Below are positions 41,746 to 44,964 of a stretch of DNA of 64,000 bases, in pieces. Both the position numbers and the translations under genes were made by a program. Source of the DNA: Candidatus Nitrosocaldus sp. (GTDB taxonomy: Archaea > Thermoproteota > Nitrososphaeria > Nitrososphaerales > Nitrosocaldaceae). The DNA lies in the NCBI GenBank assembly GCA_025054855.1, contig JANWZS010000003.1, positions 1-64,000 of the forward strand, read 5' to 3'. Position 1 is the stretch's first letter, and every line of letters starts with the position of its first letter. A model generated the notes under the pieces. That model saw only the letters and a list, made by a program, of their open reading frames with translations. It searched no databases and had not been told where the DNA came from.

Positions 41746-41785
41746 GCGATAATGATTTTTATCCTTGTATGCTGAAGGTACTAGT

Positions 41786-43024
41786 ATGGAGTATGAGCAG
41801 GAGGTTGAGGTCACTGGCCACCTCATAGACTCCATGATACTAACCAGGATATTCGATAAGGTCATGGACCTCAAGGGTGACTTTGAAGTGCTAGAGTTCA
41901 GGATAGGCAAGGAGAAGACCTCGCCGAGTTATGCTAGGCTTATGGTTAGAGGTAGGAGCAGGGAGCACCTTGCACAGATACTCGAGGAGGTCTATAGGGA
42001 GGGCGCTACCCCAGTGCAGGTGGAGGAGGTCATACTCGAACCTTCTGCAAGGGATATGGTTCTACCAGATGAGTTCTACAGCACAACCAACAACAGGACC
42101 ATGATATACGTCGATGGTCAATGGATAGAGGTTGAGGATATAATGATGGACAAGTGTATAGTCTACGATCCATCGAGCAGGAGGGCGTACTGCAAAGCAA
42201 TAAGGGAGGTGAAGAAGGGGGATCTGATAGTCGTTGGGGAGAAGGGCATAAAGGTCATCCCTCCAGAGAGGCCCAGGGAGGGAGTAGACCTCTTCCAGTT
42301 CATGAGCAGCGATGCATCGAGCGAGAGGCCTACACTCCAGATGATAAGGAAGGTCGCAAGGGACATGCATGCGTTGAAGAGGGATGGAGGTAAGATAGTT
42401 GCCGTTGCTGGACCTGCAGTCGTGCACACTGGTGCCGCAGATGCCCTAGCAGCGCTCATAAGGCTTGGGTACATCAAGGCACTGCTTGCTGGCAATGCTC
42501 TAGCAGTGCATGATATAGAGCATGCACTGTTTGGAACCTCACTAGGCATGTACGTTCACGATGGTACTCTAGCGGTTAGAGGGCATAGGCACCATATGCG
42601 TGCCATCAACGAGGTCTTCAAGGCTGGTTCCATAAGGGCTATGGTTGAGAATGGTACTCTGAAGAAGGGTATAATGTATGAATGTGTAAAGAACAATGTA
42701 CCATACGTGCTCATAGGCTCGCCCAGGGACGATGGCCCGATACCAGATGTGATAACTGATGTGGTGCAGGGCTGGAGGATGTACAGGGAAGTGCTTAGAG
42801 GAGCAGATATGGTGCTTATGCTGAGCACTATGCTCCATAGCATAGCTGTAGGGAACATGCTCCCCTCACATGTGAAGGTTGTTGTAGTCGATATAAACCA
42901 TGCAGTGGTTACAAAGCTGATGGATAGGGGTACATGGCAGGCTGTGGGGATAGTATCCGATGTTGGTGTATTCCTACCTACACTGCTTGAGAACATAACT
43001 GCACTAGAGGGTAGCGGGGAGTGA
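41786..43024 (+). CDS. LOR/SDH-family protein, probable archaeal ornithine cyclodeaminase
   Basis: 412 residues. An N-terminal LOR/SDH conserved domain (G-H-L-I-D-S-M-I-L-T-R-I-F-D near residue 11; T-T-N-N-R-T-M near 95) is followed by a TIGR00300-type domain with G-P-A-V-V-H-T-G near 212 and V-V-V-D-I-N-H-A-V-V-T-K-L-M near 368. A member from Methanococcus converts ornithine to proline and ammonia with NAD, giving archaea without classical proline enzymes a route to proline. Start at 41786 is about 26 nt from TTTTTAT. The function is inferred from the family. Confidence 0.82.
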   Translation: MEYEQEVEVTGHLIDSMILTRIFDKVMDLKGDFEVLEFRIGKEKTSPSYARLMVRGRSREHLAQILEEVYREGATPVQVEEVILEPSARDMVLPDEFYSTTNNRTMIYVDGQWIEVEDIMMDKCIVYDPSSRRAYCKAIREVKKGDLIVVGEKGIKVIPPERPREGVDLFQFMSSDASSERPTLQMIRKVARDMHALKRDGGKIVAVAGPAVVHTGAADALAALIRLGYIKALLAGNALAVHDIEHALFGTSLGMYVHDGTLAVRGHRHHMRAINEVFKAGSIRAMVENGTLKKGIMYECVKNNVPYVLIGSPRDDGPIPDVITDVVQGWRMYREVLRGADMVLMLSTMLHSIAVGNMLPSHVKVVVVDINHAVVTKLMDRGTWQAVGIVSDVGVFLPTLLENITALEGSGE

Positions 43025-43167: not shown

Positions 43168-43239
43168 ATGAGCGTATATCACTGCAACATGTATGGGGAT
43201 GGGGTGTGTGACTGTGGATGCTGCGCTGGCGATGGGTGA
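43168..43239 (+). CDS. 23-residue Cys-rich mini-ORF
   Basis: Encodes M-S-V-Y-H-C-N-M-Y-G-D-G-V-C-D-C-G-C-C and A-G-D-G: five cysteines plus one His in 23 residues, a likely metal-binding peptide. A TATA box CATATATTC (about 43139-43147) lies 25 nt before its ATG, the window's standard leaderless spacing. Its TGA overlaps the ATG (43239) of the membrane protein in TGATG, so translation would pass directly from one to the other. It could be a metal-sensing leader peptide or a tiny partner. Confidence 0.5.
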   Translation: MSVYHCNMYGDGVCDCGCCAGDG

Positions 43240-43832
43240 TGAGCATGAGTGAGCCACTCTACGCATTCTCCATAGCAAGGACTATGTATGCAGGGGCAGT
43301 GGCTGGGTTCATAGCGAGCTGGTATGTTACAGTGCTCCTGATGGCAAGTGAGTACGAGATAGGCTTCCCCATGGGCACGTTCTACACCGTCATAGGTGAG
43401 GTTGCAGGGTTCAGGGGTGCAGATGCGCTCTACGCAGGTCTGGCACTGCACATACTGACAAGCACTGTAGTAGGTTCGCTCTCTGCACTCCTCCTGGTCA
43501 CCATACTGAGGCACTGGAGGCTCAGGGGCAAGGTATGCATAGTCTGCTCGTACAGGGCCGCTGGGGTTGGGCTCATACTGGGCTTCATAATATGGCTTGT
43601 ACTGTTCCTGCCAGTCACGTTCCTTATCGTCGAGCCATCGCTCGCATCCAGGGCTGCTGGCGATCTGAGCATGCTCTACTCCACATCAGTATCCGTATCT
43701 GCACTCCTGAGCATGGTCTGGGTTATAACCGTAAGCGCACTCCCGTACCACCTCGGCTATGGTGCCACACTGGGCTACCTGATGAGCAGATTGGTCAGGC
43801 GCATGGCCATAACTGGCAGGGCGAATATTTAA
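43239..43832 (+). CDS. Multi-pass membrane protein, unknown
   Basis: 197 residues with about four membrane helices (near 15-35, 60-85, 108-130 and 148-170). Cys pair in G-K-V-C-I-V-C-S near residue 97 on a loop. No recognised family. The frame is also open upstream (ATG 43218), but the ATG at 43239 overlaps the stop of the Cys-rich mini-ORF and gives a clean N-terminus. The next gene's TATA overlaps its last codons. A metal-related role is only suggested by the mini-ORF. Confidence 0.65.
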   Translation: MSMSEPLYAFSIARTMYAGAVAGFIASWYVTVLLMASEYEIGFPMGTFYTVIGEVAGFRGADALYAGLALHILTSTVVGSLSALLLVTILRHWRLRGKVCIVCSYRAAGVGLILGFIIWLVLFLPVTFLIVEPSLASRAAGDLSMLYSTSVSVSALLSMVWVITVSALPYHLGYGATLGYLMSRLVRRMAITGRANI

Positions 43833-43840
43833 ATACCTAG

Positions 43841-43868
43841 TTAGGTGAGACTAATTAGGTGTGACTAA
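43841..43868. promoter_or_regulatory. Tandem 14-bp repeats at the TFB-like promoter
   Basis: TTAGGTGAGACTAA (43841-43854) and TTAGGTGTGACTAA (43855-43868) are direct repeats differing at one base, each with TTAG/CTAA half-palindromes. They lie just downstream of the TATA box (ATTTAAATA, about 43826-43834) and over the expected transcription start. Likely operator for a dimeric repressor binding twice; the regulator is unknown. Confidence 0.55.
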
Positions 43869-43871
43869 CTG

Positions 43872-44522
43872 ATGCATATCCAGATCAGCGATAAGATTGA
43901 CGATCTGTTCACGCAGGTACTGCAGGATACCCTTGGGGTGGATGATGGTGTAGATCTGGTTGGTGATGGTAGGTACGCCTCTATAGTATCCAATGCGATG
44001 AGGCTCTACATCGACCTGAGCAGGGGGTACAGGATAAGGAGCAAGAAGACCATCATATGCACAGCGATATATGCAGCGCTCAGACTCGCAGGGTATGCTA
44101 TAACCGTCAACGCATTTGCAGATAGGGTAGGGATGGATGTGAGGAGGCTAGCAGTCTGCTACAGGGCGATGCAGAGGGTTCTAGGGTTGACCGTACCAAA
44201 CCCATCCCTCAATGCGTACATAGATGAGGTTGTGAGATGGCTGGAGGAGGATGGTGGTGCACAGGATAGGTACACAGATGTAGATACTGCAAGGCTGAAG
44301 GAGGAGTCGTATAGGTTGGCTGGTTATGTGAATAGCATGATGAATGGCAGGGGCTTCAACCCTGCTGGCATGGCAGCTGCCATAGTTTACCTCTCGCTGG
44401 ATGAGAGGTGTAGGAAGGCTGTTGGTATCAGGAATCTGGCAAGGATCACTGGTGTGAGCGTTGTCACTGTGAAGAAGAGGATAGAGGACCTCAAGGCACT
44501 GCTGAATGGTCATGTGCAGTAA
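43872..44522 (+). CDS. TFB-like protein without N-terminal zinc ribbon
   Basis: 216 residues with two cyclin-like repeats of archaeal TFB/eukaryotic TFIIB: first about 45-110 (Y-R-I-R-S-K-K-T-I-I-C-T-A-I-Y-A-A-L-R), second about 140-210 (N-P-A-G-M-A-A-A-I-V-Y-L-S-L, then I-T-G-V-S-V-V-T-V-K-K-R, the DNA-contacting HTH). The zinc ribbon and B-finger that recruit RNA polymerase are absent, and the repeats are divergent. It could compete at promoters or act as a specialised factor. Tandem repeats in its promoter suggest tight control. Confidence 0.75.
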   Translation: MHIQISDKIDDLFTQVLQDTLGVDDGVDLVGDGRYASIVSNAMRLYIDLSRGYRIRSKKTIICTAIYAALRLAGYAITVNAFADRVGMDVRRLAVCYRAMQRVLGLTVPNPSLNAYIDEVVRWLEEDGGAQDRYTDVDTARLKEESYRLAGYVNSMMNGRGFNPAGMAAAIVYLSLDERCRKAVGIRNLARITGVSVVTVKKRIEDLKALLNGHVQ

Positions 44523-44613: not shown

Positions 44614-44964
44614 ATGGCCAAAATAGTGGTGATAGAGATAGGAAAATCGGTGGTTGGTGCTGTAATAAAGCACCTTGGTAGGCCATACGCTGTGGTCAGT
44701 TATCCCAGGGAGGTTCACATAAGCGAGTTCAAGAAGATACTGAAGGAGGCATACCAGAAGATAAACGATGCCATCTCCTCCCCAGGCGAAGGCGGTAGTG
44801 ATGATGGTGAGGTATGGCTCATACTATCTGGGCCGTTGGCACTGGTCTTCCAGCTGGGGCAGATAGTTGGGGAGATGAGCAACGTGAAGGTACTCCAGTA
44901 CTACAACGGCGAGTACCATATAGTACCTTCTATAAGCAGGGATGAGTTGCGGGATAAGGTATAG
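44614..44964 (+). CDS. Rossmann-like protein, possibly SAVED/CARF-related
   Basis: 116 residues. A beta-alpha-beta N-terminus (A-K-I-V-V-I-E-I-G-K-S-V-V-G-A-V), then V-W-L-I-L-S-G-P-L-A-L-V-F-Q-L-G-Q-I-V-G and V-K-V-L-Q-Y-Y-N-G-E-Y-H. The pattern of a strand, a Gly-Pro turn, a helix with L-G-x, then a strand ending in Y resembles the second half of SAVED/CARF domains that sense cyclic nucleotides in defence. No effector domain or CRISPR gene is near, so this is tentative. A Gly/Ser/Asp loop is inserted near residue 60. Confidence 0.45.
   Translation: MAKIVVIEIGKSVVGAVIKHLGRPYAVVSYPREVHISEFKKILKEAYQKINDAISSPGEGGSDDGEVWLILSGPLALVFQLGQIVGEMSNVKVLQYYNGEYHIVPSISRDELRDKV

Follow-up and report, generated by a model that had tools for sequence, protein, structure and literature searches.

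A TFB-like cyclin core lacking the zinc ribbon and its conserved, iron-box-like double operator in Candidatus Nitrosocaldus

Within a 64,000-nucleotide stretch of a Candidatus Nitrosocaldus genome (the window), we found a gene for a TFB/TFIIB cyclin core without zinc ribbon, B-reader or linker, preceded by a conserved double operator that looks like a DtxR/IdeR-type iron box. The reading that we favour, and to which we give about an even chance, is that this ribbonless TFB paralogue is controlled by a metal-sensing DtxR/IdeR-family repressor and competes with or modifies canonical TFB. The cyclin core, the double box and the genes sharing the box are read directly from the sequence, and from them we infer the repression and competition steps. 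Archaea are thought to switch gene programmes by means of TFB sets, and the wiring of these sets to signals is mostly unexplained. Here, a TFB derivative cut down to its promoter-binding half is apparently wired straight to a metal sensor, as part of a small, defined regulon. The gene thus offers a concrete test case for basal-factor fragments as archaeal regulators.

The open reading frame lies at 43872-44522 on the forward strand and encodes 216 amino acids. The Pfam TFIIB profile matches the protein in two stretches, its 24.4 bits barely exceeding the curated cut-off of 23.6, the match to the NCBIfam TFB model PRK00423 (E 2.4e-13) is confined to model positions 162-307 of 312, and the Pfam and NCBIfam searches returned no zinc ribbon. 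A phmmer search recovered the Pyrococcus woesei TFB core (1ais_B and 1d3u_B, E about 7e-7). Aligned with canonical TFBs, including the two ribbon-bearing TFBs of its own 1.56 Mb genome (G000, contigs C7 and C11), the frame opens at cyclin repeat 1, its first helix being the start of the repeat, and the alignment with these two own TFBs shows neither B-reader nor B-linker. Both cyclin repeats of TFB/TFIIB are present and in order, with the residues common to all TFBs. Prediction from the single sequence was poor (pLDDT 50.7). An AF2 model built from a three-row alignment (the window protein, a Bathyarchaeal TFB and a viral-contig TFB) reached a pLDDT of 78.7 and a pTM of 0.71 and contains ten helices that form the two cyclin repeats; a scan of genome contigs had yielded a single Bathyarchaeal TFB and a viral scan one viral-contig TFB. 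The best PDB matches of the model in Foldseek are TFB/TFIIB/Brf cores (1d3u_B, TM 0.68/0.73), and it superposes on TBP-bound TFB/TFIIB cores. Profile searches, alignment and fold model agree with the first-pass annotation, which had proposed a TFB-like factor that keeps the two cyclin repeats and lacks the ribbon. A ribbon overlooked upstream, which that annotation had named as a possible refutation, was ruled out because an in-frame stop stands one to three codons before the start codon in all six orthologues of the genus.

Sequence identity of the core to archaeal TFB/TFIIB cores is 25-29%, and the protein departs from them in charge and in its recognition helix. The core carries a charge of +4 (+4 to +13 in the family), whereas the canonical TFB carries +15 (range +13 to +20), and the C-terminal recognition helix, EVTVRNRYK in canonical TFB, is VVTVKKRIE in the window protein. 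Residues EVTxRNR of this helix read the BRE. Where EVTVRNR has its arginine, members of the family carry K, S or R (K or S in four of five), and the valine is mostly kept. With its low charge and this changed arginine, the ribbonless core may no longer read the BRE or bind TBP. These features bear on a possible but unlikely explanation, namely that the TFB-derived core left the basal machinery and became a gene-specific regulator, still under metal-box control, whose C-terminal helix-turn-helix contacts DNA unaided by TBP. A weak HTH_11 match at residues 186-211 is consistent with such a role, as is the tree, where 5.5 changes per site separate the single clade of this protein family from every canonical TFB; with so long a stem, the tree gives the family no definite position. 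Against this explanation, both repeats are retained in order with the residues common to all TFBs, and the model superposes on TBP-bound cores.

The TATA box of the gene (TTTAAATA, 43828-43835, forward strand) shares bases with the stop codon that ends the preceding gene (43218-43832, forward strand), which encodes a membrane protein with a weak DUF6789 match; this neighbour lies outside the unit, and its C-terminal end precedes the TFB-like gene in relatives too. Farther upstream in the window, 41765-43024 encodes a nickel-pincer-nucleotide-dependent ornithine cyclodeaminase (TIGR00300, E 1e-184). In all six genus genomes the operator begins 5 nt past the TATA box and lies between it and the ATG, which itself falls 40 or 44 bases past the start of the TATA box. 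The operator consists of box 1 (TTAGGTGAGACTAA, 43841-43854) and box 2 (TTAGGTGTGACTAA, 43855-43868), both on the forward strand, and reads TTAG-N6-CTAA twice, end to end, over 28 bp, with the two 14-bp copies differing at one position. Across the six promoters all 16 core positions are invariant and the spacer bases vary. The archaeal start site is expected about 25 bp downstream of TATA and is thus predicted to lie within the operator. Two 14-bp repeats with one mismatch over the expected initiation site had been noted before, and their conservation in relatives named as a test; both points hold in these genomes. Chance predicts 0.0003 occurrences of TTAGN6CTAATTAGN6CTAA in a genome of 1.56 Mb, where exactly two were observed and a reversed-pattern control gave 0; together with the conservation in six genomes, this expectation rules out a chance repeat. 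The boxes resemble the 14-bp DtxR/IdeR half-site TTAGGNNNNCCTAA (PMC8464063), from which each departs by a single mismatch (ACTAA for CCTAA), and IdeR boxes at repressed genes overlap the start site (PMC10317159). Downstream, a 116-amino-acid protein (MAKIVVIE..., 44614-44964, forward strand), which also follows the gene in relatives, probably has its own promoter. This protein has a weak partial match to a SAVED domain (E 7e-4) that is probably not meaningful.

The first-pass annotation had supposed dedicated repression of the TFB-like gene, and this part did not survive a genome search for the motif, which rules out a private operator by finding the same type of site at further genes. A second exact double box (C1:12694-12721) lies between the TATA box and the start of a 386-amino-acid secreted protein with a PEFG-like C-terminus, and five of the six genomes carry a double box with one mismatch where a phnDCE operon begins (C22:96777-96804 in the own genome). 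A single box (C33:118381-118394) precedes a 240-amino-acid protein with a C-terminal zinc ribbon (start near C33:118399; L050:1519-2238), conserved as CxCGYELP...CPRCGxxYH in its orthologues (L157, L159, L168). The promoter of this gene, TTTAAATA-N5-TTAGGYTRGCCTAA (whole, TTAGGTTAGCCTAA), is found in five genomes with 0 hits for the reversed-pattern control; its box is a perfect TTAGGNNNNCCTAA and its TATA spacing is that of the TFB-like gene. Two intragenic box-like sites (G000:C39:18575 and C6:4401) were left out of the count. Our data suggest that the operator of the TFB-like gene belongs to a small regulon comprising phnDCE, the PEFG-like protein and the zinc-ribbon protein. A perfect palindromic box (TTAGGCTAGCCTAA; G000:C42:62894-62907, L101:1501-1514) also follows a TATA-like TATATAG; downstream of it there is no long open reading frame, and the site could possibly serve a small RNA or small protein. 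We rejected FTR1 and FeoB as targets in the own genome: FTR1 was not found in the window's family, and the search for FeoB gave no clear one, only weak GTPase matches in frames of about 400 amino acids. The phnDCE genes usually encode a phosphonate importer, and since the family is without FTR1 and a clear FeoB, they may here be a route for iron or an iron chelate. The boxes would thus outline the predicted iron (metal) regulon of a lineage in which the examined genomes lack FTR1 and a clear FeoB.

We propose that when iron is sufficient, the metal-loaded regulator, for which a 151-amino-acid protein at C40:67644 is the best candidate, would occupy the start site as a pair of adjacent dimers, blocking transcription. 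When iron runs short, the regulator would leave, and the TFB-like protein would be made along with phnDCE, the secreted protein and the zinc-ribbon protein. The core would then bind TBP-TATA promoters, or canonical TFB, without recruiting polymerase through a ribbon, and would compete with or modify canonical TFB at a subset of promoters, the simplest outcome being their lower use under iron shortage. The first-pass annotation had supposed a dominant-negative or alternative initiation factor, and either action is conjectural. In vitro, Sulfolobus TFB3 has been reported to compete for polymerase with TFB1 (PMC2246294), and activation in trans has been reported for it too (PMC7289017), so either sign of effect is plausible. 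The core might help full-length TFB in trans as an activator or co-factor, for instance by holding TBP more firmly on weak TATA boxes at genes of the iron response. This precedent of a truncated paralogue working with canonical TFB (PMC7289017) speaks for such a co-factor, and a positive role would suit a gene co-regulated with uptake genes. Nevertheless, TFB3 has a ribbon and no helix-turn-helix (PMC2246294), and because the domain loss is the opposite of that in the ribbonless core its mechanism is not transferable; overall we consider this co-factor role unlikely.

We found further evidence for the identity of the regulator beyond the genus. The 28-bp skeleton occurs order-wide, in 92 of 250 genomes. 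In a related family (f11), where the half-site is exact as it is at the zinc-ribbon gene, the double box separates TATA from ATG at FTR1 (L111 and L112; Pfam FTR1, E 2.9e-56) and at FeoB (L113 and L115, with E 1.1e-57); it also stands about 160 bp ahead of a DtxR-family gene (L114). Regulators of the DtxR family are encoded in all seven genomes of the window's family, two genes per genome; the C40 protein shares 49% identity with the L114 regulator and resembles IdeR/DtxR/MntR structures, and the C39 protein is MntR-like. The skeleton by itself does not prove an iron regulator, since TTAGN6CTAA also occurs upstream of TATA at unrelated genes. In Nitrosopumilaceae-type genomes (lineage labels of this kind are inferred from sequence likeness), arrays made up of two to four such 14-bp units end to end, without the GG/CC flank, stand just upstream of TATA and precede a conserved membrane protein of about 94 amino acids (MNAWNKFWKWYENKILGS...; L130 1501-1557, L122 454-495, L133 1501-1557, L123-L129) with no Pfam match, and in L116 and L127 similar sites are followed by canonical TFBs. 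These arrays may serve a different regulator. The operator in the window might belong to a regulator of another kind than the DtxR-family metal sensors, or to one that senses phosphorus or something else, its iron-box likeness then being convergent; the boxes at phnDCE and the arrays upstream of TATA at non-iron genes in other families lend this view some weight. We regard it as distinctly improbable, given that FTR1 and FeoB of f11 carry this box at the corresponding place between TATA and ATG, that the box also lies near the DtxR gene there, and that the half-site at the zinc-ribbon gene is perfect. The GG...CC form, the position between TATA and ATG and the f11 targets support the iron reading, and together suggest control of the ribbonless TFB gene by iron status. 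The identically built promoters of the core and the 240-amino-acid zinc-ribbon protein also bring to mind a B-factor split in two under metal starvation, either an alternative initiation factor or a two-part inhibitor that would reprogramme promoter use, an idea that we hold to be very improbable.

Orthologues of the ribbonless TFB occur in all five other genus genomes examined (52-58% overall identity), and the sister genus contains no orthologue. The gene is intact in five of the six genomes; that of G098 is frameshifted by a 5-bp tandem repeat (G098:C10, about 59300; L009, about 1500), through either an assembly error or gene loss. Among the five intact orthologues dN/dS is about 0.2-0.4, which shows the paralogue to be under purifying selection. 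A decaying pseudogene of a TFB duplicate with a promoter kept by chance, as the G098 frameshift and the high divergence might suggest, is disfavoured to the point of being barely credible, with five of six copies intact, dN well below dS and an invariant operator core.

Loss of the ribbon is not unique to the window family, since further, independent ribbonless TFB-like cores occur sporadically in other families of the class (L034 in G184, L135 in G270 and L136 in G229). No ribbon reading frame was found within 700 bases upstream of these three and no box within 250 bases upstream. The claim that the device is new for the lineage therefore needs narrowing: ribbonless cores already occur elsewhere in the class, in a small number of genomes, and what is new, as far as the literature shows, is the combination of such a core with a conserved iron-type operator. 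We found no description of a ribbonless TFB under metal control in the open-access literature.

The TFB sets of ammonia-oxidising archaea and haloarchaea likewise include lineage-specific paralogues with condition-dependent expression (PMC12448741, PMC7554672), and TFB levels change in iron-starved Haloferax (PMC11349517); in the cited portions of these papers, however, the paralogues are discussed as initiation factors and none is described as ribbonless. With the archaeal TFB/TFIIB core of Pyrococcus woesei (1AIS/1D3U) the protein shares two ordered cyclin repeats, common core residues and a TM of about 0.7, but it is without zinc ribbon, B-reader and linker and differs in its low identity, lower charge and altered recognition helix. 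The operator is similar to DtxR/IdeR boxes in its 14-bp TTAGG-N4-CCTAA half-sites over the predicted start site, in the encoded regulators and in the iron-transporter boxes of relatives, whereas here two half-sites stand end to end (14-bp period, 28 bp) and the classical box is an overlapping 19-bp palindrome, TTAGGTTAGSCTAACCTAA. Lastly, Sulfolobus TFB3 is a truncated TFB paralogue as well, induced by stress (in its case damage) as the ribbonless core would be, but TFB3 has the ribbon and is without the B-finger and the C-terminal helix-turn-helix, so that the ribbonless core is, domain by domain, its mirror image.
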